Shown here in pieces: positions 15,104 through 24,941 of a stretch of DNA of 64,000 nt. A program made the position numbers and the translations under genes. The notes under the pieces are model-generated. The model did no database searches. It worked only from the letters and a program-made list of their open reading frames with translations, and was not told where the DNA came from. Position 1 is the stretch's first letter; each line of letters starts with the position of its first letter. The DNA is from Streptomyces sp. YIM 121038 (lineage in GTDB: Bacteria; Actinomycetota; Actinomycetes; Streptomycetales; Streptomycetaceae), in the NCBI RefSeq assembly GCF_006088715.1, contig NZ_CP030771.1, positions 6,219,501 through 6,283,500 of the forward strand, in the 5' to 3' direction.

Positions 15104-16939
15104 GTGCGCATTGGACTGCTTACGGAGAGTGGCTATCCGTATGTGGGCGGTGAGGCCAGGCTCTGGTGCGACCGGCTCGTGCGCGGGCTCGGGCGGCACG
15201 AGTTCGACGTCTACGCGCTGAGCCGCAGCGCCCGCCAGGAGGCGCTGGGCTGGGTCGACCTGCCCCCGCAGGTCCGCCGGGTGCGCAGCGCCGCGCTGTG
15301 GGGCGAGGCCTCCGGACGGCCGGTGCTGTGGGGGCGGCGCCGCGCGGGCCGGCGCTTCGCCGAGTGCTTCACGGAGCTCGCGGCGGGGCTGACGGGCGCG
15401 TCCGGTGAGGGCGTGACGCGCACGCCCGACGGGGGTGTGACGGGCACGTCCGGCGAGAGCGTGACGGGCACGTCCGATGAGTTGGCGGACCGTTTCGGCA
15501 ACGGCCTCTACGGCCTCGCCGAACTCGCCCGCGACACCGGCGGGCTCGCCGGGGCCCTGCGCTCCGAGGACGCCGTACGCGCCCTGGAGAGCGCCTGCCG
15601 CGCGCCCGGCGCGCACCGGGCCGCCCGCGCCGCCCGCGTGCCCGACCTGCTCGCCGTCGCGGCGGACCTGGAGCGGACCCTGCGCCCGCTCTCCCTCGAC
15701 TGGTACGACGACGACACGCTCGGCGCCGTCGACCTCTGCCACGCCACGGCGGGCGGCGCCGCTGCGCTGCCCGGCCTGCTCGCCCGGCACTTCGCGGGCG
15801 TACCGCTGCTCGTCACCGAGTACGGCGTACGGCTGCGGGCGCACTACCTGGCGGGCGCGGGCGCCGTGGCGGGCGCGGGCGCCGCCGAAGAGCCCGCGCC
15901 GAGCGCACCCGCGCGGGCGCTGCTCGCCTCCTTCCACGGCAGGCTCGCCGCCGAGACCTACCGCGAGGCCACCGTCATCACCCCCGGCAACGCGCACGCC
16001 CGCCGCTGGCAGGAGCGGTGCGGTGCCGACCGCGCCAAGCTGCGCACGGTCTACCCGGGCCTGGAGGCCGACCGCTTCGCCGAGGTCGGCGAGCGCGAGG
16101 AGCCCGGCGAGCCGCACACGCTCCTGTGGGTCGGCCGGGTCGAGCCCGCCAAGGACCTGATCTCCCTCCTGCACGCCTTCGCCGAGGTCCGCAAGGAGGA
16201 ACCCGGGGCGCGCCTGCGGATCGTCGGCGCCCTCGCCGACGGGGACCGGGCCGCGGCCTACCTCGCCCACTGCCGGGCGCTCGCCGCGCAGCTGTTCCCC
16301 GACGAGGCCGAGGACGCGTACGCGGTCGGCGCCAACCCCGTCTCCTTCGAGGAGATCGGCAGCCCCGAGGCGCCGGACCTCGCCGACGCCTACGCCGGAG
16401 GCGGCGTGGTCGTCCTGTCGAGCGTCGTCGAGGGCTTCCCCATCAGCCTCATCGAGGCGATGCTCTGCGGCCGCGCCACGGTCTCCACGGACGTCGGCGC
16501 GGTGGTCGAGGTCATCGGCGGCACGGGCCTCGTGGTGCCGCCCCGCAACCCCCGGGCGCTCGCGCAGGCGTGCGTGCAGCTGCTGCGCGACCCCGAGCGC
16601 CGCGCACGCCTCGGTGCGGCGGCGCGGGCCCGGGCGCTCGAACTCTTCACGGTCGAGCAGAACATCGCGGCATTTCACAGCATTTACCTGGAGATCGTCT
16701 CGCACTGCCCGGTGCGACGCGAGACCGTGAACGAGGCGGGCGAGCCGGTGCCGTTCGCCCACCCGGCCGAGGCGTCCGTGCCGGGCCGGTGGGCCGTCGG
16801 CGGCCGCCTCGCGGGCGCGGTCCCCCTCGGCAGGCCCGCACCCCTCGGCACCGCCGCGACCGCCGCCACCGCCGCCACCGCCCCGAGCTGGGCCGCCCGC
16901 TGCGGCCTGCGGGGACACCTGGGGGAGGTGGCGTCGTGA
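15104..16939 (+). CDS. PelF-like GT4 glycosyltransferase with DUF3492 domain
   Basis: A 611-residue cytosolic glycosyltransferase. The N-terminal DUF3492-type region opens with RIGLLTESGYPYVGGEARLW, resembling the start of PelF. The GT-B C-terminal domain shows LLWVGRVEPAKD, RLRIVG and the EX7E-type retaining motif in EGFPISLIEAM, followed by VVPPRNP. PelF uses UDP-GalNAc to build the Pel polysaccharide in Pseudomonas; a similar sugar is inferred here. A short degenerate Gly/Thr repeat (15410-15480) and an Ala-rich C-terminal tail are not part of the fold. The GTG at 15104 has GGGGG upstream. It is the first gene of a coupled operon. Confidence 0.8.
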   Translation: MRIGLLTESGYPYVGGEARLWCDRLVRGLGRHEFDVYALSRSARQEALGWVDLPPQVRRVRSAALWGEASGRPVLWGRRRAGRRFAECFTELAAGLTGASGEGVTRTPDGGVTGTSGESVTGTSDELADRFGNGLYGLAELARDTGGLAGALRSEDAVRALESACRAPGAHRAARAARVPDLLAVAADLERTLRPLSLDWYDDDTLGAVDLCHATAGGAAALPGLLARHFAGVPLLVTEYGVRLRAHYLAGAGAVAGAGAAEEPAPSAPARALLASFHGRLAAETYREATVITPGNAHARRWQERCGADRAKLRTVYPGLEADRFAEVGEREEPGEPHTLLWVGRVEPAKDLISLLHAFAEVRKEEPGARLRIVGALADGDRAAAYLAHCRALAAQLFPDEAEDAYAVGANPVSFEEIGSPEAPDLADAYAGGGVVVLSSVVEGFPISLIEAMLCGRATVSTDVGAVVEVIGGTGLVVPPRNPRALAQACVQLLRDPERRARLGAAARARALELFTVEQNIAAFHSIYLEIVSHCPVRRETVNEAGEPVPFAHPAEASVPGRWAVGGRLAGAVPLGRPAPLGTAATAATAATAPSWAARCGLRGHLGEVAS

Positions 16940-18261
16940 CGGGACGTGACGCGGCCGCCGCGGCACAGGGTCGTGGCGCGGCGGCGCTGAGGGGTGGCGC
17001 GACCGGCCTGGGTGGGGAAGCGGAGGCCGCGGGCTGCAGCGCGACCGGCCCGGGCGGAGGCGTGGAGGCCCCGGGCGGCTGTGCGACCGGCCTGGACGGA
17101 GGCGCGAAGGCCCCGGGCGGCGGTGCCTTCGCCCCGAGCCGTGGCGCGCAGTCCCCCCGGCGCGGCACGGGCGACCCCGTCAAGGCCCTCCTCCACCGGC
17201 ACCGCGAACTCTGCGAACGGGCCGTCGACCCGCTGGAGATCGCGGCGGGCCTGGAGGCGCACGGCGTCACCGACCGCACGGCCGCGCGGTTCCGGCACCG
17301 CGACGTGTTCGCCCTCGCCGAGGAGATGTACGCGCGCGTGCCGCGCGACAGCGACGAGTGGGACGCCCTCGACGCCCCGGGGCACGGCAGCTCCGGCCGA
17401 CCGGCGGGCGCCGCCCCCGAAGTCCACGCCGCCTGGCCGGTGTTCGCGCTGCTGCCCGGCGCGGTGTGCGCCCTCACCGTCGCCGGGCTCGCCCTCACCA
17501 CGGGCGGCGTGCGCCTCGCGGTGGGCCTGGGCGGCGCGTTCGCCCTCGCCGCCACGGTCCGCGTCGCCCTGCGCCACGGCCCGCTGCGCACCCCGCGCCC
17601 CGCCGCGTCGGCCACGCGCGCGTGGACGTGCTGGCTGCTCGCGTACGCCCTGTGCGGCGAGGGGCTGCTGCGCGCCGCCGCGCCGGGCGGGACCGACCGG
17701 GCCCTGCCGCCCTCGGCCCTCGCCGCCCTCGGGCTCGCCGCCGCCGTCGTGCCCGGCACGGCGTGCGCACGGCTGTTCACGGTGCGGGCCCGCCGACGGC
17801 TCGGCAGGAGCCGGGGGCTCGCCGACTTCGCCGCGTCCGTACGGCCCCTCCTGCTCGGCGTGTTCGCGCTCTACGCGACCGCGGTGGGCCTGGCGCTGGC
17901 CGGAGCCGACGCCGCGCTCGGCCTCGCCGGCGCGGCGGGCGCGGGCGGCGTGACCCCCTGCCTGGGCGTCGGGGCGCTGGCCGCGCTGCTGTGGCTCGGG
18001 CGGCTCCTCGCGGCGCACGGCTCCACGCGCGCGCCCGCCCTCGTGTACGCCGCGGTCGGCGCGACCGGGGCGGCGGCCCTGGCCCTCGCGTGGGCCGCCC
18101 GCCTTCCGGGCTGCGGCTTCCTCGCCACGCCGGTGGAGACCGCGGCCCTCACCTGGGGCGTGCCCGCCGCCGTCTGCGGGGCGGGGGCCGCGCTCCTGCT
18201 GGCCCGCGCGGTCCGCGTGCTGGGCCGCGCCTCCGCGCACGCCTGCGGGGGTGCGGCATGA
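16936..18261 (+). CDS. polytopic membrane protein of the PelF-like operon
   Basis: A 441-residue protein. Residues 20-75 are a low-complexity Gly/Ala region made of about three 45-base repeat units. A conserved-looking soluble segment follows (RHRELCERAVDPLEIAAGL to EEMYARVPR, about 80-140), then roughly eight to ten hydrophobic helices to the C-terminus. The GTG start overlaps the glycosyltransferase stop by four bases. The position suggests the membrane exporter role that PelG fills in pel operons, but the N-terminal PelG signature is not present. Function is therefore unassigned. Confidence 0.7.
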   Translation: MTGRDAAAAAQGRGAAALRGGATGLGGEAEAAGCSATGPGGGVEAPGGCATGLDGGAKAPGGGAFAPSRGAQSPRRGTGDPVKALLHRHRELCERAVDPLEIAAGLEAHGVTDRTAARFRHRDVFALAEEMYARVPRDSDEWDALDAPGHGSSGRPAGAAPEVHAAWPVFALLPGAVCALTVAGLALTTGGVRLAVGLGGAFALAATVRVALRHGPLRTPRPAASATRAWTCWLLAYALCGEGLLRAAAPGGTDRALPPSALAALGLAAAVVPGTACARLFTVRARRRLGRSRGLADFAASVRPLLLGVFALYATAVGLALAGADAALGLAGAAGAGGVTPCLGVGALAALLWLGRLLAAHGSTRAPALVYAAVGATGAAALALAWAARLPGCGFLATPVETAALTWGVPAAVCGAGAALLLARAVRVLGRASAHACGGAA

Positions 18262-18560
18262 ACGCGTGCGCCGCCGCTCGGGGCTCGCGGCTCCAGGGCC
18301 TGCGACTCCAAGGCTCGCGGTTCCAGCGCCCGAGGCTCCTGCGCCCGAGGCTCCAGGGCCCCCGGCTCCAGCGTCCGAGCCCTCAGCACCCCCGCGGCGA
18401 ACCCGAGCCCTCCGACCACCCCGCCCCCGAACGGCCCGAACCCCCGCTCCCGCGGCCCCGGCGCGGGCCCCGGCGGCGCGGGCCCCGGTCGCGGCGGGCC
18501 GCGCCGGTCCATCCGTTACCCGAGACAGCCGGCACCACCCTGAAGGAGAAACACAGATGA
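18258..18560 (+). CDS. small basic low-complexity protein (100 residues)
   Basis: The ORF begins with an ATGA overlap to the upstream stop and ends with an ATGA overlap to the next ORF, which is the main evidence that it is translated. The product is very rich in Arg, Pro, Leu and Gln. Its first half is a repeated RLQGPRL-like unit from degenerate tandem DNA repeats (18285-18375). It has no membrane segment and I recognise no family. It may serve mainly to carry ribosomes to the downstream epimerase gene. A different frame across the same bases (18251-18604) is also open, so the call is tentative. Confidence 0.4.
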   Translation: MNACAAARGSRLQGLRLQGSRFQRPRLLRPRLQGPRLQRPSPQHPRGEPEPSDHPAPERPEPPLPRPRRGPRRRGPRSRRAAPVHPLPETAGTTLKEKHR

Positions 18561-18604
18561 CAAGGCCCAGCATCCGAGCGTCCGTCCCCGGAGGCGCCCG
18601 ATGA
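18557..18604 (+). CDS. 15-codon coupling micro-ORF
   Basis: A 15-residue ORF with an ideal AAGGAG ribosome-binding site eight bases before its ATG. The ATG overlaps the preceding stop (ATGA) and its stop overlaps the epimerase ATG (ATGA at 18601). The arrangement suggests translational coupling rather than a functional peptide. Confidence 0.4.
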   Translation: MTRPSIRASVPGGAR

Positions 18605-19551
18605 GGGTGTTGCTGATCGGAGCCAACGGATACCTCGGCCGGTTCGTCGCCGACCGGCTGCTCGCCGACCCGGCGGTCCAGCTCACCGCGCTCGGCCGCG
18701 GGGACGACTCGGACGTACGGTTCGACCTCGCCAGCGGCAGCCCCGGCGCGCTGACCCGCTTCCTGGACGCCGTACACCCGGGCGTCGTCATCAACTGCGC
18801 GGGCGCCACCCGCGGCGGCGCCCGCGAACTGACCCGGCACAACACCGTCGCCGTCGCCACCATCTGCGAGGCCCTGCGCCGCAGCGGCTGCGGCGCCCGC
18901 CTGGTGCAACTCGGCTGCGGCGCCGAGTACGGCCCGAGCCAGCCCGGCTCGTCCACCGCCGAGGACGCCGTGCCACGGCCCGGCGGCCCCTACGGCGTCA
19001 GCAAGCTGGCCGCCACCGAACTCGTCCTCGGCTCCGGCCTGGACGCCGTGGTCCTGCGGGTGTTCTCGCCCGCGGGCCCCGGCACCCCCGCCGGATCGCC
19101 GCTCGGCCGCCTCGCCGAGGCCATGCGCCGCGCCATGCAGTCCGGCGACGGCGAGCTCAAGCTCGGCGGGCTCGGCGTCCAGCGCGACTTCATCGACGTC
19201 CGCGACATCGCCCGGGCCGTGCACGCCGCCTCGCTCTCCGCCGCCCAGGGCATCGTCAACATCGGCTCCGGGCGCGCCGTGCGGCTGCGCGACGCCGCCG
19301 CCGTGCTCGCCCGCGTCGCCGGCTACGGCGGCGCCCTGCACGAACTCGACCAGCCGCCCGGCAGGCCCGGCCTCCACCCGCGGGTCGACGCCGACCACGC
19401 CGCGCCCGCCGCCTACCCCTACCCGGACGGCTGCGGCAGCTGGCAGCAGGCCGACGTGCGCACCGCGCGCGACCGGCTCGGCTGGCGGCCGCGCATCAAC
19501 CTCGAAGAGTCGCTCGCCGACATCTGGATGGAGGCCGCATGCCGCATCTAG
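18601..19551 (+). CDS. NAD-dependent epimerase/dehydratase (extended SDR)
   Basis: A 316-residue extended short-chain dehydrogenase. The Rossmann motif GANGYLG near residue 7 binds NAD, the catalytic YGVSK motif lies near residue 131, and VQRDFIDVRDIARA near 195 is typical of sugar-nucleotide epimerases. The start has GGAGG six bases upstream. In several pel clusters an SDR (PelX) makes UDP-GalNAc from UDP-GlcNAc; an equivalent C4-epimerase role here is inferred from context, and the substrate cannot be read from the sequence. It overlaps the next gene by 13 bases. Confidence 0.8.
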   Translation: MRVLLIGANGYLGRFVADRLLADPAVQLTALGRGDDSDVRFDLASGSPGALTRFLDAVHPGVVINCAGATRGGARELTRHNTVAVATICEALRRSGCGARLVQLGCGAEYGPSQPGSSTAEDAVPRPGGPYGVSKLAATELVLGSGLDAVVLRVFSPAGPGTPAGSPLGRLAEAMRRAMQSGDGELKLGGLGVQRDFIDVRDIARAVHAASLSAAQGIVNIGSGRAVRLRDAAAVLARVAGYGGALHELDQPPGRPGLHPRVDADHAAPAAYPYPDGCGSWQQADVRTARDRLGWRPRINLEESLADIWMEAACRI

Positions 19552-20351
19552 GCCGCACACCGCACCCCGGCCCCACCCCCCGGCCGGGCCGCGGACCGCG
19601 TCCCACCGGCACGACGGCCCTCGGCCCGCGGACCGCCCCGCGCGTCGGCTTCGGCGTCCCCGGCACCGCCCACCCCCTGCTGGCCTCCGCCGAGTGGGCC
19701 GAACTCACCCGGGCCCACGGCTCCTTGCACTGGGTCGTCCTGAACGTCGCGGGCGGCCCGGGCGACCGGCCCGACCCACACTGCCTCGACGCCGCCGGAC
19801 GACTGCGGAACGCGGGCGTCCGGGTCCTCGGCCACCTCGACGCGGCGTACGGCGCCCGGAGTTTCGGCGAACTCGTCTCCGACGCCCACCGCTATCTCGA
19901 CTGGTACCTCGTCGACGGCTTCTACCTCGCCCGCTGCCCGACGGAGCGCGCGGCGCTGCCCGAGGTCCGGCGCACCGTCACCACCCTGCGCGCGCTCCTC
20001 GGCAGGGCCCACGTCGTGTTCGGGCACGGCACGCACCCGTACCCCGGATACATCGAGAGCGCCGACCAGTTGGTGACGTTCAGCGGGCCCTGGAGCGACT
20101 ACCGCTGGTCCCAGGTCGCCGAGTGGACCGCCGACTACCCGCCCGAGTGCTTCTGCCACCTCGTACACGGCGTACCGCGCGGCCACCTCGACGAGGCGCT
20201 GCGCGTCGCCCGCTGGCAGGGCGCCTCGACGATCTACTTCACCGACCGCACGGACGGCGGCGGCAGCGGCGCGGGCGGCGACCCCTGGGAGGCCCTGCCC
20301 GGTTACTGGGACGAGATCGTCTCGCGTATCGGACCAGGTGTCTCGGAATGA
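19539..20351 (+). CDS. spherulin-4 (GH135-like) family protein
   Basis: A 270-residue protein with a 40-residue Pro/Arg-rich N-terminus and a TIM-barrel-like domain beginning RVGFGVPGTAHPLL. The features HWVVLNVAGGPG, RVLGHLDAAYGARSFGELVSD and YLVDGFYLAR match the spherulin-4 family, whose fungal member Sph3 (GH135) cleaves alpha-1,4-linked galactosaminoglycan. The usual acidic pair after the VDG strand is absent (VDGFYLAR), so activity may be altered or lost. No export signal is visible. The ATG has GGAGG just upstream within the epimerase gene. It is the last gene of the operon. Confidence 0.75.
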   Translation: MPHLGRTPHPGPTPRPGRGPRPTGTTALGPRTAPRVGFGVPGTAHPLLASAEWAELTRAHGSLHWVVLNVAGGPGDRPDPHCLDAAGRLRNAGVRVLGHLDAAYGARSFGELVSDAHRYLDWYLVDGFYLARCPTERAALPEVRRTVTTLRALLGRAHVVFGHGTHPYPGYIESADQLVTFSGPWSDYRWSQVAEWTADYPPECFCHLVHGVPRGHLDEALRVARWQGASTIYFTDRTDGGGSGAGGDPWEALPGYWDEIVSRIGPGVSE

Positions 20352-20414: not shown

Positions 20415-21593
20415 GTGTCGCTGCCACCCCTGGTCGAGCCAGCATCTGAGCTCACCGTCGACGAGGTCCGCAGGTACTCCCGCCACCTGATCATCCCGGA
20501 CGTCGGGATGGACGGGCAGAAGCGGCTGAAGAACGCCAAGGTGCTCTGTGTGGGCGCCGGCGGCCTCGGGTCACCGGCGCTGATGTACCTCGCGGCGGCG
20601 GGTGTCGGCACCCTCGGCATCGTGGAGTTCGACGAGGTCGACGAGTCGAACCTGCAGCGCCAGATCATCCACAGCCAGTCCGACATCGGCCGCTCCAAGG
20701 CCGAGTCGGCCCGCGACAGCGTCCTCGGCATCAACCCGTACGTGAACGTGGTCCTGCACGAGCAGCGGCTCGAAGCCGACAACGTGATGGACATCTTCAG
20801 CCAGTACGACCTGATCGTCGACGGCACCGACAACTTCGCGACCCGCTACCTGGTCAACGACGCCTGCGTGCTCCTGAACAAGCCGTACGTATGGGGCTCC
20901 ATCTACCGCTTCGACGGCCAGGCCTCGGTGTTCTGGTCCGAGCACGGCCCCTGCTACCGCTGCCTCTACCCGGAGCCCCCGCCCCCCGGCATGGTCCCGT
21001 CCTGCGCCGAGGGCGGCGTGCTCGGCGTGCTGTGCGCGTCCATCGGCTCCATCCAGGTCAACGAGGCCATCAAGCTCCTCGCGGGCATCGGCGAGCCGCT
21101 CGTCGGCCGCCTGATGATCTACGACGCCCTGGAGATGCAGTACCGCCAGGTCAAGGTCCGCAAGGACCCCGACTGCGCGGTCTGCGGCGAGAACCCCACC
21201 GTCACCGAGCTCATCGACTACGAGGCCTTCTGCGGCGTCGTGTCCGAGGAGGCCCAGGAGGCGGCCGCCGGTTCGACGATCACTCCCAAGCAGCTCAAGG
21301 AGTGGATCGACGCCGACGAGAAGATCGAGATCATCGACGTCCGCGAGCCGAACGAGTACGAGATCGTCTCGATCCCGGGCGCCAAGCTGATCCCGAAGAA
21401 CGAGTTCCTCATGGGCACCGCCCTGCAGGGCCTGCCGCAGGACAAGAAGATCGTCCTGCACTGCAAGACGGGCGTCCGCAGTGCGGAGGTCCTCGCCGTC
21501 CTGAAGTCCGCGGGCTTCGCGGACGCCGTGCACGTCGGCGGCGGCGTGATCGGCTGGGTCAACCAGATCGAGCCCGAGAAGCCCGTCTACTAG
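20415..21593 (+). CDS. moeZ: MoeZ: adenylyltransferase/sulfurtransferase
   Basis: A 392-residue MoeB-rhodanese fusion. The N-terminal E1-like domain carries the ATP loop GAGGLGSPALMYLAAAGVG, the R residues of NLQRQ, and two zinc CxxC pairs (CYRC and CAVC). The C-terminal rhodanese domain has the active-site loop CKTGVRS with Cys350. It adenylates ubiquitin-like carrier proteins and transfers sulfur to them, serving molybdopterin synthase, thiamine and cysteine or thiopeptide pathways. Length and domains are standard for actinobacteria. The GTG start follows GGAG. A bidirectional hairpin follows the stop. Confidence 0.95.
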   Translation: MSLPPLVEPASELTVDEVRRYSRHLIIPDVGMDGQKRLKNAKVLCVGAGGLGSPALMYLAAAGVGTLGIVEFDEVDESNLQRQIIHSQSDIGRSKAESARDSVLGINPYVNVVLHEQRLEADNVMDIFSQYDLIVDGTDNFATRYLVNDACVLLNKPYVWGSIYRFDGQASVFWSEHGPCYRCLYPEPPPPGMVPSCAEGGVLGVLCASIGSIQVNEAIKLLAGIGEPLVGRLMIYDALEMQYRQVKVRKDPDCAVCGENPTVTELIDYEAFCGVVSEEAQEAAAGSTITPKQLKEWIDADEKIEIIDVREPNEYEIVSIPGAKLIPKNEFLMGTALQGLPQDKKIVLHCKTGVRSAEVLAVLKSAGFADAVHVGGGVIGWVNQIEPEKPVY

Positions 21594-21663: not shown

Positions 21664-23262
21664 TCATGGCGCGCAGACCTTGCCGTCGCGCGGGACCTCG
21701 CCCTTGAGCAGATAGTCGTTGACCGTGCCGTCGACGCAGTCGCTGCCGTTGCCGTACGCCCCGTGGCCCTCGCCCTTCCAGGTGAGCTGGACGCCGACGC
21801 CCTCGCCCAGCTCGTCCGCCATCTTCCGGGCGCCCTCGTACGGCGTCGCCGGGTCGCCGGTGGTGCCGACGACCAGGATCGGGGCGGCGCCGGGAGCGCT
21901 CACCTCGGGCGTGTCCCGCAGGCCGGCCACTGGCCAGTCGTGGCACCAGCCCGCCGTGTCCCAGGCCATGAAGCCGCCGAACACCGGGGATATCTCCCGG
22001 AACGCGGCGAGCCGCGCCTTGGCCTCGGCCGCCGTCGGCCGCTCCTTGGCGTCCCGGCAGCCGATCGCGCGCTGCGCGTGGCTCTGGGTGCTGTACGCGC
22101 CGGACGCGTCCCGGTCGTTGTACGTGTCGGCCAGCTCCAGGAGTCCCGTGCCGTCGCCCTTCTCGGCCTTCTCCAGGGCGTCGGTGAGCACCGGCCAGGT
22201 CTGCCTGCTGTACAGCGCGACCGTGATGCCCGTCGTCGCGAGGGCCTCGCCGAGCCTGCGGCCGGGCGTGGACGTCCGCAGCGGCTTCGCGTCCACGCGG
22301 CGCAGCAGCTCGGCTATCCTCCGCGTGCCCGTGGCGGGGACCTCTCCGGAGGACCTGAGGTAGTTCTCCAGGGCGCGCTGGAAGCCCCGGGCCTGGTTCC
22401 GCGCGTGGCCCACCGTGCCCGCCGTCGGGTCGACGACCGCGTCGAGGGTGAGGCGGCCCACCTTCTTCGGGAACAAGTGGGCGTACGTGCCGCCCAGTTC
22501 GGTGCCGTACGAGATGCCGAAGTAGTGCAGCTTCTCGTCGCCGAGGACCTGCCGCAGGACGTCCATGTCGCGGGCGGCGTCGGCCGTCGAGACGTGCGGC
22601 AGGAGCTTCTTCGCGGCCCGCGCGCAGCCCGCGCCGAACGCGGCCGCGTCGCCCAGATACGCCTTCTCCTCGGCCGGGGTGTCCGGGGTGGGGTCCGTGT
22701 TCTCCGCCGCCTGGGTCCGCTGGTCGCTGCGGCAGCGCACGCCCTCGCTGCCCGCGACGCCGCGCGGGTCGAAGCTCACCAGGTCGTACCGCTCGCGCAG
22801 GTCGCCGTACGCGCCCGCGAACGCCGGGAGCATGGAGACGCCCGAGCCGCCGGGCCCGCCGAAGTTGAACAGGAGCGAGCCGATGCGGTCGCCGCGCTTC
22901 TTGGCGGTGGACGCGGCGCGGATCAGGGCGATGCCGATGGTCTCGCCGTCCGGCTTCGCGTAGTCCAGCGGGACCTTCAGGGTCGCGCACCGCCACTCGC
23001 CGCCGGGCGGGGCGTCCTTGCCCGAGCCCTCGCACGCGCCCCAGTCGAGCCGCTGTGCGACCACGGCCGCGGGCAGCGTGGACGACGGGTCCGGCCGCGG
23101 CTTCGGGTCGGCGCCCTGGGCCGCGGGGCGCTCACCGCTTCTGCCGCCGTCGCTGCCGTCCTTGCCGCCCTTGTCGTCGGACGAGCCGGTGCACCCCACG
23201 GCGAGCGCGGCCACCAGGGTCGCCGCGGTGGCCAGGGCCGCCGACCGTACGAAAAGCGGCAT
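21664..23262 (-). CDS. secreted S33-family peptidase lipoprotein
   Basis: A 532-residue alpha/beta-hydrolase peptidase of the tripeptidyl-aminopeptidase type. The signal peptide ends in a lipobox at Cys24 (LAVGC), so the enzyme should be lipid-anchored outside the cell. A low-complexity Gly/Ser/Asp linker follows. Motifs: FNFGGPGGSG oxyanion loop, GISYGTELG with nucleophile Ser251, TTGDPATPYEGA carrying the acid and GEGHGAYG carrying the histidine. It presumably trims peptides from protein N-termini. It is a close tandem paralogue of the next gene upstream, 86 bases away in the same direction. Confidence 0.9.
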   Translation of the reverse strand: MPLFVRSAALATAATLVAALAVGCTGSSDDKGGKDGSDGGRSGERPAAQGADPKPRPDPSSTLPAAVVAQRLDWGACEGSGKDAPPGGEWRCATLKVPLDYAKPDGETIGIALIRAASTAKKRGDRIGSLLFNFGGPGGSGVSMLPAFAGAYGDLRERYDLVSFDPRGVAGSEGVRCRSDQRTQAAENTDPTPDTPAEEKAYLGDAAAFGAGCARAAKKLLPHVSTADAARDMDVLRQVLGDEKLHYFGISYGTELGGTYAHLFPKKVGRLTLDAVVDPTAGTVGHARNQARGFQRALENYLRSSGEVPATGTRRIAELLRRVDAKPLRTSTPGRRLGEALATTGITVALYSRQTWPVLTDALEKAEKGDGTGLLELADTYNDRDASGAYSTQSHAQRAIGCRDAKERPTAAEAKARLAAFREISPVFGGFMAWDTAGWCHDWPVAGLRDTPEVSAPGAAPILVVGTTGDPATPYEGARKMADELGEGVGVQLTWKGEGHGAYGNGSDCVDGTVNDYLLKGEVPRDGKVCAP

Positions 23263-23348
23263 GTCTCGCTTCCCCCCTCGAATGAACGTCCGGCCATCCT
23301 AGGCGGGGCCACTGACAGCGCCCCGGCACGCCCTCGGCCGCGCGCCCC

Positions 23349-24941
23349 TCAAGTGCCGGACGGGACCGCCGCCTTGCCCGCCGCCTTGCCCGTGCCGCAG
23401 ACCGTGCCCGACGTCGGCACCGTGCCGTTCAGGAGGTAGCCGTCCACCGCGCCCCGCACGCACGCGTCCCCGCTGTCGTACGCGCCGTGCCCCTGGCCCT
23501 TGTACGTCAGCTCGACGCCCACGCCCTCGCCGAGCGCGTCGACCATCTTGCGGGCGCCCTCGTAGGGAGTCGCGGGGTCCCCGGTGTTGCCGATGACGAG
23601 GATCGGCGCCGCGTCGGGGGCACTGACGTCCGGGTGGTCGGCCTGGCCCGGCACGGCCCAGTCGGTGCAGCCGAGCATGCCCCACGCCAGATAGTCGCCG
23701 AACAGCGGCGAGGCCGCCCGGAAGCGGGGGAGCTTCGCCTCGACGTCGGCCGTCGTGTACCGCGGCTTGTCGTCGGCGCAGTTGATGGCGACGTTCGCCG
23801 CCGACAGGTTGCTGTACTCGCCGTCCTCGTTGCGCCCGTTCATCGAGTCGGACAGGAGCATGAGGATCCGGCCGTCGCCGTCGTAGGCCTCTTCCAGGCC
23901 CTCGGTGAGGTAGGGCCAGAAGTCCTGGGAGTACAGGGCCTGCACGATGCCGTTGGTGGCCGCGGTCTGGGTCAGGCGGCGCGGCGGAAGACCGGGCAGC
24001 GGCTTGGCGTCCAGGTCCTTCAGGAGCTTGGCGATGCGGTCCTTGACGTCGTCCTCGGTGTCGCCGACGGGGCAGTCGTCCTTCTGGGAGACGCAGTCCT
24101 TCGCGAAGTTGTCGAGGGCGAGCTGGAAGCCCTTGGCCTGCCCGAGGGAGCCCTGTTCGGCCGTCTCGGTGGGGTCGACGACCGCGTCGAACACGGCGCG
24201 GCCGACGTTCTTGGGGAACAAGTGCGCGTAGACGCCGCCGAGTTCGGTGCCGTAGGAGATGCCGAAGTAGTGCAGCTTCTTGTCGCCGAGCACCTGGCGC
24301 ATCAGGTCCATGTCGCGGGCCACGTCAGTGGTGCGCACATGGGGGAGCACCTTGCCGGAGTTCTCCTCGCACGCCTCGTTGAAGCCCTTGACGTTGTCGA
24401 TGAACTCCTTGCGCTCGGCCTCGTCGTCGGGCGTCGCGTCCTGCTGGAAGTACCTGTCGAGCTGTGCGTCGTCCTCGCACCGCACGCCGTCGCTGCGGCC
24501 GACGCCGCGCGGGTCGAAGCTCACCAGGTCGTACCGGGTGCGCAGCTTCGCGTAGTCGGCGCCGAACGCGGGCAGCGTCGTGACGCCCGAGCCGCCGGGG
24601 CCGCCGAAGTTGAACACGAGCGAGCCGACGCGCTTGTCCTCGGCGCCACTGGCCCGGGCGCGGATGAGCGCGATGCCGATCGTGTCGCCCTCGGGCTCGT
24701 CCCAGTCCAGCGGGGCCTTCATGGTGGCGCACTGCCACCGCGCGCCGCCGGGCAGCGGTGACGGGGCCCCGCCGCCGCCCTCGGCCGCGGACGGCGCCGG
24801 GCAGTCCTTCCAGCTGAGCTTCTGGTCCGGCCGGGCCTCGTCGGCTGTGTCCGAGGCCGCGTCACCGCAGGCCGCGAGCGCGGTGGACAGCAGGACGGCG
24901 GTGGCGGCCAGGGCCCTGGCACGCGGCGGGAGCTTGGGCAT
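23349..24941 (-). CDS. secreted S33-family peptidase lipoprotein (paralogue)
   Basis: A 530-residue paralogue of the neighbouring S33 enzyme, with a lipobox at Cys25 (ALAAC). It has the same motif order: FNFGGPGGSG, GISYGTELG with Ser229, NTGDPATPYEGA and GQGHGAYD. Compared with its neighbour it has an extra cysteine pair in a CVSQKDDCPVGDTEDD insertion and a longer Ala/Gly C-terminal tail. ATG 24941 is used because the protein then starts with a standard basic signal peptide. The two genes probably arose by duplication and may share a promoter upstream of this copy. Confidence 0.9.
   Translation of the reverse strand: MPKLPPRARALAATAVLLSTALAACGDAASDTADEARPDQKLSWKDCPAPSAAEGGGGAPSPLPGGARWQCATMKAPLDWDEPEGDTIGIALIRARASGAEDKRVGSLVFNFGGPGGSGVTTLPAFGADYAKLRTRYDLVSFDPRGVGRSDGVRCEDDAQLDRYFQQDATPDDEAERKEFIDNVKGFNEACEENSGKVLPHVRTTDVARDMDLMRQVLGDKKLHYFGISYGTELGGVYAHLFPKNVGRAVFDAVVDPTETAEQGSLGQAKGFQLALDNFAKDCVSQKDDCPVGDTEDDVKDRIAKLLKDLDAKPLPGLPPRRLTQTAATNGIVQALYSQDFWPYLTEGLEEAYDGDGRILMLLSDSMNGRNEDGEYSNLSAANVAINCADDKPRYTTADVEAKLPRFRAASPLFGDYLAWGMLGCTDWAVPGQADHPDVSAPDAAPILVIGNTGDPATPYEGARKMVDALGEGVGVELTYKGQGHGAYDSGDACVRGAVDGYLLNGTVPTSGTVCGTGKAAGKAAVPSGT

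Follow-up and report, generated by a model that had tools for sequence, protein, structure and literature searches.

The question raised by this locus is whether four neighboring genes of Streptomyces sp. YIM 121038 constitute a machine that makes and trims a galactosamine-containing polymer, as had been proposed in a sequence-only reading of the window (the whole 64,000-nucleotide stretch of DNA analyzed). The four genes, here termed locus B, and their surroundings are as follows.

15104..16939, + strand: GT_B, a GT4 glycosyltransferase with DUF3492, PelF-like (GTG start, 611 aa)
16936..18261, + strand: TM_B, a polytopic membrane protein (GTG start, 441 aa)
18262..18600, + strand: intergenic low-complexity stretch
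18557-18604: possible 15-codon ORF at the end of the intergenic stretch, overlapping the SDR_B start
18601..19551, + strand: SDR_B, an extended SDR, RMD-like (316 aa; PF01370, 125.1 bits)
19539..20351, + strand: SPH_B, a Spherulin-4 protein (PF12138), GH135-like without the catalytic pair (270 aa)
20415..21593, + strand: moeZ, a constant flanking neighbor outside the system (NF005902 MoeZ, 758.7 bits)

All four genes were present on the + strand as first described, but their description as a single coupled operon was only partly borne out. TM_B overlaps GT_B by 4 bases and SPH_B overlaps SDR_B by 13 bases; however, 339 bp separate the TM_B and SDR_B genes, so the set is not coupled throughout. 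A leader peptide ahead of SDR_B was considered, as an in-frame short ORF occurs there in 36 of the 39 clade-B loci, yet this was weak evidence, since the ATG-AGR start of SDR_B dictates where the ORF must stop, and for that reason the candidate was not retained. An Rfam scan of the 6.5 kb around locus B gave no match, and simple sigma-70 and terminator scans of the locus found nothing. Consistent with the earlier observation that a PelG signature and a PelA deacetylase are absent here, neither pelG nor pelADA was present among the four genes, moeZ, the four upstream opp-type genes and the two downstream hydrolase-like genes that were scanned; nor was there an Agd3-type deacetylase among the scanned window genes. 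PelG (PF16933) had no match over its cut-off in the whole genome, where a single sub-threshold match lies elsewhere (25.2 versus 29 bits); 197 genomes from its class likewise gave none.

Family searches upheld the identification of the first gene product as a DUF3492/GT4 PelF-like glycosyltransferase, GT_B scoring 80.8 bits against PF11997 DUF3492 (cut-off 23.3) and, narrowly, 105.8 bits against NCBIfam PelF NF038011 (cut-off 100). The last was likewise confirmed as a spherulin-4/GH135-like protein by its match to PF12138 (73.9 bits, cut-off 30.2) and to the PDB entries 5d6t (E 2.1e-6) and 5c5g (E 8.1e-6). The Pfam Spherulin4 model detected the protein in 37 of the 61 relatives and misses many clade-B copies that are recovered with SPH_B as the query. 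Hydropathy, the only measure applied, gave no evident N-terminal hydrophobic signal in SPH_B, and its structure predicted from 24 close homologues had a pLDDT of 38 and was left unused.

The membrane protein had been proposed to be an exporter replacing PelG. No Pfam or NCBIfam family was matched in the scan of TM_B, and Foldseek with its model returned no match at E 0.001. TM_B has a conserved N-terminal soluble stretch at about residues 80-135, and residues 166-433 have a MOP-flippase-like predicted fold; modeling thus suggests that TM_B may be a protein of this kind. (The over-long L060 protein was dropped from the hhalign comparison of membrane proteins.) The predicted fold, and a genome without PelG over the cut-off, favor the idea of a non-PelG exporter, although it gained no family or Foldseek match.

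The third protein had been read as an extended SDR epimerase resembling PelX. It is an extended SDR, but epimerase is an interpretation. The best PDB sequence match of SDR_B in both searches was 2pk3, a GDP-6-deoxy-4-keto-hexulose reductase (RMD), with 132.5 bits, followed by 6wjb (103.1), the RMD 6x3b (102.5) and the GalE 4zrm (85.3), these being pairwise scores. We take 6wj9, 6wja and 6wjb to be the PelX entries. The catalytic Ser position of SDR_B is Cys106, while Tyr131 and Lys135 are retained; the full Ser-Tyr-Lys triad of PelX/GalE-type 4-epimerases is therefore absent from it. The same Cys is found in 39 of 39 clade-B SDRs, all of which keep the Tyr and Lys of the triad, and in 80 of 80 SDRs from the best 80 of 182 loci. 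Cys is able to stand in for Ser in some enzymes. Because SDR_B appears nearer to the RMD reductases and carries Cys in place of the triad Ser, a PelX-type epimerase is unsupported.

Alterations were also seen in the other two enzymes. The catalytic or nucleotide-binding residues of GT4 enzymes include EX7E, the Arg/Lys pair, the GG loop and a His. GT_B of the window has the EX7E and GR..P.K motifs, with Arg and Lys retained, but the second Gly of the GGV loop is Glu17 and the His is Tyr. Among clade-B GTs, the loop Gly is replaced by Glu, Asp or Gln in all 35 that have a residue at this position, Arg is missing in 7/36 and Lys in 5/36 (two of these being gaps); the first Glu of EX7E is kept in 33/36 and the second in 36/36.

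For the Spherulin-4 proteins, we took the catalytic residues of Sph3 to be Asp166 and Glu167. In the Sph3 chain of the PDB match, the Asp of FFDE lies 56 residues ahead of the Glu. The accessible text of PMC12054363 prints the pair as Asp196/Glu222 and gives Asp-to-Glu spacings of 58-69 for the other families listed; because the 56-residue spacing is near these values, Asp196 is likely a misprint for 166. Alignment with Sph3 and the locus-A copies described below placed Ala131 of SPH_B at the Asp and Ser182 at the Glu. The Glu is missing from 35 of 35 clade-B Spherulin-4 proteins, and from 80 of 80 among the best 80 of 182, whereas the Asp is kept in 25/35 clade-B copies and in 61/79 from the same best 80 (L142 has a gap there). 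Thus, as aligned, clade B has lost one or both GH135 catalytic residues, exchanged the SDR Ser for Cys and changed the GT loop and His. With the Glu (and in the window also the Asp) missing and no signal peptide evident, the proposal that SPH_B trims a polymer is unsupported. Spherulin-4 proteins should not be named galactosaminidases before their catalytic pair has been checked.

The same genome contains a second, paralogous and more complete cassette of the slime type (locus A; contig 1, 7161134-7170085), 0.92 Mb from the window set. Its genes, called with a codon-usage gene caller, encode a secreted Agd3-type deacetylase, a PelF-like GT (170.1 and 201.3 against the PelF NF038011 and DUF3492 models), a membrane protein, sugar-nucleotide proteins and a Spherulin-4. 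The GT, membrane protein, SDR and Spherulin-4 genes have the same relative order in both loci, with two extra genes between those for the membrane protein and SDR in locus A, and these four genes of locus B are paralogous to the Agd3-type locus A. The Agd3 identity of the deacetylase rests on Pfam matches of its homologues (PF25115 Agd3_CE in 9 of 10 aligned, PF25116 CBM87 in 4 of 10); the protein of this genome did not itself reach E 1 against Agd3_CE, and PDB sequence searches with it found no Agd3. This marker deacetylase was found in 58/121 Streptomyces genomes sampled, about half of them, and locus-A Spherulin-4 proteins kept both catalytic residues in 14 of 14 cases. Because the secreted deacetylase and a Spherulin-4 with its catalytic pair belong to locus A, the view of locus B as the polymer machine is unsupported, although its Pel/galactosaminogalactan kinship stands. 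Annotation would lump the two loci, a galactosaminogalactan-type locus A and a near-genus-wide locus B with altered active sites.

The SDR and Spherulin-4 of locus B are near-universal in Streptomyces. All 132 genomes sampled from the genus contained SDR_B; none of 15 others of the order did. Across 199 genus members it was matched at E <= 1e-40 in 195, of which 190 were at <= 1e-100 (the five weaker matches may be locus-A copies or fragments), and a relative of SPH_B was matched at E <= 1e-30 in 187. In the survey of co-occurrence that had been suggested, the order GT-TM-SDR-SPH-moeZ recurred in 70/80 named Streptomyces loci (the best 80 of 182 found with SPH_B), which argues that the gene set is more than chance; moeZ was the next downstream gene in the loci examined that extend to it. 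Selection was by PF12138 match for the first 18 full B loci and by SDR for the next 20, which came mostly from genomes without a PF12138 match or with divergent SDRs. In five of these 20 (L087, L090, L091, L092 and L093) no Spherulin-4 was called beside the SDR, and L091 had the SDR and moeZ with no GT, TM or SPH called. At a contig end, L054 had SPH_B without the SDR.

Trees of GT, SDR and SPH, built with 14/36 GT_B, 16/39 SDR_B and 12/35 SPH_B proteins after a partial GT_A (L067) was dropped, each separated A from B with support of at least 95/80. In the SPH tree A and B were sisters, with Sph3 and others outside, and only there did the outside actinobacterial copy fall outside A + B; the SDR outgroup was unplaced. 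Locus-A-like GTs of other families grouped with A and not B (100/100), which fits either an older A/B split or a long B branch. Values of dN/dS, from hand-picked close pairs (nine for B, with eight for TM and SPH; three for A, with two for SDR), were below 1 in every pair: 0.03-0.13 for SDR_B (9 pairs), 0.02-0.14 for moeZ, 0.15-0.59 for GT_B, 0.28-0.71 for TM_B and 0.16-0.39 for SPH_B. Purifying selection on SDR_B is far stronger than on its operon partners, and SPH_B is as constrained as SPH_A with its catalytic pair kept (0.16-0.42, 3 pairs).

From the gene order beside moeB SCO5178 (PMC4340878), we infer that the S. coelicolor orthologues of locus B are SCO5174-5177. According to the accessible parts of two reports, expression of SCO5174, SCO5175 and SCO5177 rises by log2 2.2-3.8 in the stages of the second mycelium (PMC3610822) and SCO5174 mutants produce less actinorhodin (PMC6585502). 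Our literature searches, which left most subscription papers outside reach, found no paper devoted to locus B.

Together, these data make it reasonably probable that locus B, as a paralogous form of a galactosaminogalactan/Pel-type cassette of bacteria, has become a near-universal Streptomyces locus with a changed function. As an altered second copy whose Spherulin-4 has lost catalytic residues, it probably has a job in developing hyphae other than slime making and cutting, and a glycan-related function is plausible. GT_B, with its EX7E kept, and the MOP-like TM_B could still be a synthase/exporter-like pair acting on a cell-surface or lipid-linked glycan of differentiating hyphae, with a donor that would differ from that of locus A. 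SDR_B might supply or edit an NDP-sugar as a 4-keto reductase type and, as suggested by its dN/dS and by L091, may also be used outside the locus-B operon, and SPH_B may be a cytosolic, non-cleaving partner that binds glycan or enzyme. That the whole cassette became a genus-wide, developmentally induced complex, with a non-cutting hydrolase-like protein and a Cys-bearing SDR, which senses or builds a different glycan needed for differentiation and antibiotic timing, is a more speculative proposal that we hold only tentatively. Locus B offers a good entry to a near-core function of differentiating Streptomyces hyphae. Some observations weigh against a changed function: with EX7E conserved, GT_B might yet work as a normal polymerase of the PelF kind, most clade-B Spherulin-4 proteins have kept the GH135 Asp, and 6wjb scores only about 30 bits under the RMD 2pk3 for SDR_B.

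We consider it improbable that locus B alone makes and trims a galactosamine polymer, with the SDR forming UDP-GalNAc and TM_B standing in for PelG. A GT above the PelF cut-off, a GH135 relative and a MOP-like predicted fold agree with this, as do the galactosamine polysaccharides and a galactosaminidase reported for Streptomyces in the accessible text of PMC7229062, but the missing GH135 residues, the lack of an evident signal in SPH_B, the RMD-like SDR with its Cys, the changed GT loop and His, and the placing of the Agd3-type deacetylase in locus A all speak against it. Somewhat less doubtful, though still unlikely, is that in developing hyphae the GT, TM and Spherulin-4 form a complex that synthesizes nothing and instead senses a ligand or serves as a scaffold, with only the SDR active. 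Catalytic or nucleotide-binding positions are changed in three of three enzymes while overall sequence is conserved, some lineages have lost the GT Arg or Lys, and both the SDR constraint and L091 set the SDR apart from its partners; however, EX7E is kept almost throughout, a MOP-like membrane protein beside the GT argues for product export, and a catalytic residue is changed in the SDR as well. The lost catalytic residues and the loci with no Spherulin-4 called could also suggest a functionless, decaying relic of locus A. This we regard as very improbable given the genus-wide presence, fixed gene order and clade-specific conserved motifs of locus B, its dN/dS values, and the developmental induction and SCO5174 mutant phenotype of the inferred orthologues.

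Of the RMD reductases (PDB 2pk3 and 6x3b), 2pk3 is closest to SDR_B, which differs by its Cys for the catalytic Ser. The fungal galactosaminogalactan cluster, as described in the accessible text of PMC12054363 and PMC7229062, shares a GH135 relative with locus B, and its Agd3-type deacetylase is matched in locus A; its synthase is an integral membrane protein, whereas a bacterial GT4 is present here, and the Spherulin-4 of locus B is non-catalytic and apparently cytosolic. Locus B resembles the Gram-positive pelDEADAFG operon of B. cereus in its PelF-type GT4 and membrane partner, and accessory epimerase and hydrolase genes occur in some such operons (PMC7112168, accessible text), but it differs in having no PelG over the cut-off in the genome, no PelADA in the four genes and an SDR that appears not to be GalE-like. 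In the actinobacterial Agd3 (CE18) operons, the accessible text of PMC7229062 describes a cytoplasmic GT, a multi-spanning membrane protein and a Spherulin-4 or GH114 protein, an arrangement that locus A fits. Locus B shares the GT, membrane protein and Spherulin-4 with these operons, but has no deacetylase, carries a hydrolase-like protein without the catalytic Glu and lies beside moeZ in Streptomyces.

Gene calls and family matches confirmed that four genes lie on the forward strand upstream of moeZ (locus B), where the sequence-only reading had suggested a reduced or different Pel-like machine that makes and trims a galactosamine-containing polymer. The genes of this region were as follows.

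15104-16939, +, GT_B, PelF-like glycosyltransferase (GT; gene call, NCBIfam PelF and DUF3492 matches)
16936-18261, +, TM_B, polytopic membrane protein (gene call, without family match)
18601-19551, +, SDR_B, extended short-chain-dehydrogenase-type enzyme (SDR; gene call)
19539-20351, +, SPH_B, Spherulin-4 (gene call)
20415-21593, +, moeZ, directly after the four-gene set
21664-24941, -, neighbouring pair of TAP-like alpha/beta-hydrolase genes that resemble each other (PF08386, PF00561)

Oligopeptide-transport genes flank locus B on its 5' side and the hydrolase pair lies 3' beyond moeZ. This pair is convergent on moeZ, and similar genes adjoin moeZ in many B loci. The proposed coupling of the four genes held for GT_B/TM_B and SDR_B/SPH_B, which overlap, but 339 bp separate TM_B from SDR_B. 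A possible 15-codon ORF (18557-18604) with its own ribosome-binding-like stretch has a stop overlapping the SDR_B start. In 36 of 39 B loci a comparable short ORF lies ahead of the SDR gene, but the SDR start forces that stop. Imperfect short low-complexity repeats were visible by eye at 15400-15490 (in the GT_B gene), 17000-17130 (start of the TM_B gene) and 18280-18500 (the gap before SDR_B).

In profile searches GT_B narrowly passed the NCBIfam PelF model (105.8 bits, cut-off 100) with a weak DUF3492 match (80.8 bits); a family search with TM_B assigned no family. Locus B is related to galactosaminoglycan-type machinery, and to that extent the galactosamine-polymer reading was right. However, the genome carries a second cassette, locus A, and of the two this is the stronger candidate for producing such a polymer. 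Scanning the genome (11.1 Mb, 2 contigs) with DUF3492 and Spherulin4 gave two places for each, the window (C1:6219501-6283500) and C1:7161134-7170085 (L004:4135-13086), 0.92 Mb away. The genes of locus A, in transcription order, were as follows.

Gene 1, secreted deacetylase-like protein, 719 aa (P0009)
Gene 2, PelF-like GT, 525 aa (PelF 170.1 bits, DUF3492 201.3 bits)
Gene 3, membrane protein, 504 aa
Gene 4, 4,6-dehydratase-like SDR (LegB model 450.8, cut-off 475)
Gene 5, nucleotidyltransferase, 237 aa (PF00483, 130 bits)
Gene 6, SDR_A, 309 aa, paralogue of the window SDR
Gene 7, Spherulin-4, 233 aa

A uroporphyrinogen decarboxylase gene adjoins locus A. Elsewhere in the genome, a sub-threshold PelG-like match (C1:2309978-2310334; 25.2 against 29 bits) is perhaps another MOP-type transporter.

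Comparison of active sites did not support the trimming role proposed for Spherulin-4. An Asp/Glu pair serves as nucleophile and acid/base in GH114, GH135, GH166 and GH191, according to the available text of PMC12054363. By alignment, every one of the 14 A copies keeps the Sph3 Glu (E222), which is lacking in all 35 B copies taken from genome loci and in all 80 from named loci (the best 80 of 182), two B sets that may have species in common. The residue there was Ser in 21, Ala in 8, Arg in 3 and Thr, Cys and Gln in one each of the 35, and in the named best 80 of 182 it was Ser in 53, Ala in 13, Arg in 9, Thr in 3 and Cys in 2. The GH135-type Asp was present in 14/14 A copies, in 25/35 B copies and in 61/79 from the named best 80 of 182; the window copy has Ala at this position. 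Judged from these residues, SPH_B is unlikely to work like Sph3. Clade-B Spherulin-4 carries its own conserved motifs, which reach the final residue. Several database entries label it 'phage tail protein', apparently a misannotation, and simple hydropathy alone made no signal peptide evident in Spherulin-4 of either clade.

The other enzymes differed between the loci as well. The catalytic Ser of the SDR is Cys in all B copies (39/39, and 80/80 of the named best 80 of 182) and Ser in 8/8 A copies. In a profile search against solved structures the RMD reductase 2pk3 came first for SDR_B (132.5 bits), as it did in a single-sequence search, ahead of the PelX entry 6wjb (103.1) and RMD 6x3b (102.5). 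SDR_B, taken for an epimerase in the sequence-only reading, is not a typical one. In the GT, 15/16 A copies have the second Gly of the GGV loop typical of A; at this position all 35 ungapped B copies carry Glu, Asp or Gln. The TEHGV His is Tyr in 31/35 B copies and His in 16/16 A copies. GT_B proteins conserve an Arg (29/36), a Lys (31/36) and the EX7E glutamates (33/36 and 36/36).

Trees of GT, SDR and Spherulin-4 all separated A from B (support at least 95/80). With Sph3 and actinobacterial homologues outside, the Spherulin-4 clades were sisters; because the A copies and the aligned outside sequences (Sph3, two far homologues and locus L097) retain the Glu, the simplest reading is that clade B lost it. 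In the GT tree the A-like GTs of other families group with A (100/100), and the SDR tree does not place the outgroup.

SDR_B matched 195/199 genus members at E <= 1e-40 and 190/199 at <= 1e-100; at <= 1e-50 it matched 132/132 genus members and 0/15 others of the order. The window Spherulin-4 had relatives in 187/199 (E <= 1e-30), and some of the weaker hits probably belong to locus A. The named sample, the best 80 of 182 loci found with this query, was all titled Streptomyces; 70 showed the complete GT-TM-SDR-SPH-moeZ order, nine were short and truncated at contig ends, and one (L175) had no called GT. The locus-A deacetylase was found in 58/121 genus members (E <= 1e-50) and 14/246 genomes of the class (E <= 1e-20).

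Our best guess is that locus B has a glycan-related function in differentiating hyphae. The available text of PMC4340878 gives moeB as SCO5178 in S. coelicolor, and locus B is therefore expected to be SCO5174-SCO5177, numbers inferred from order beside moeB. As far as the accessible reports go, SCO5174 ('transferase'), SCO5175 and SCO5177 were log2 2.2-3.8 higher in second mycelium (24, 48, 72 h) than in first (PMC3610822), and mutants of SCO5174, a putative glycosyltransferase, had reduced actinorhodin (PMC6585502). A serious rival is a pseudoenzyme complex in which the SDR alone is active. Across nine close B pairs (eight for TM_B and SPH_B), dN/dS of SDR_B was 0.03-0.13, comparable to moeZ (0.02-0.14), and its partners lay well above it (GT_B 0.15-0.59, TM_B 0.28-0.71, SPH_B 0.16-0.39); at locus A, SPH_A gave 0.16-0.42 (3 pairs) and SDR_A 0.29 and 0.51. 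Among 20 loci picked by SDR, a called Spherulin-4 adjoined in 15 and not in five, and locus L091 retained only the SDR and moeZ, with GT, membrane protein and Spherulin-4 uncalled, hinting at a separate role for the locus-B SDR. The glycan-related function remains our preferred reading.

Locus A had a constant order in 15 Streptomyces loci (L004, L056-L069), deacetylase-GT-membrane protein-(SDR1-NTP-SDR2)-Spherulin-4, apart from a deacetylase that the gene calls break in L061 and an uncalled Spherulin-4 in L064. The bracketed block was present in 8 and absent in 7, giving seven-gene and four-gene forms; its dehydratase-like SDR, nucleotidyltransferase and SDR_A would be the enzymes one expects to find for making a 6-deoxy sugar. 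PDB sequence searches with the locus-A deacetylase did not find Agd3, and the protein of this genome, searched by itself, gave no Agd3_CE hit with an E value of 1 or better; among ten aligned family members, nine matched Pfam Agd3_CE and four CBM87. Bacterial Agd3 operons with a GT and a multi-spanning membrane protein, plus Spherulin-4 in some Actinobacteria, were reported in 2020, in the available text of PMC7229062. Locus A has these components in common with them and is therefore of a known kind.
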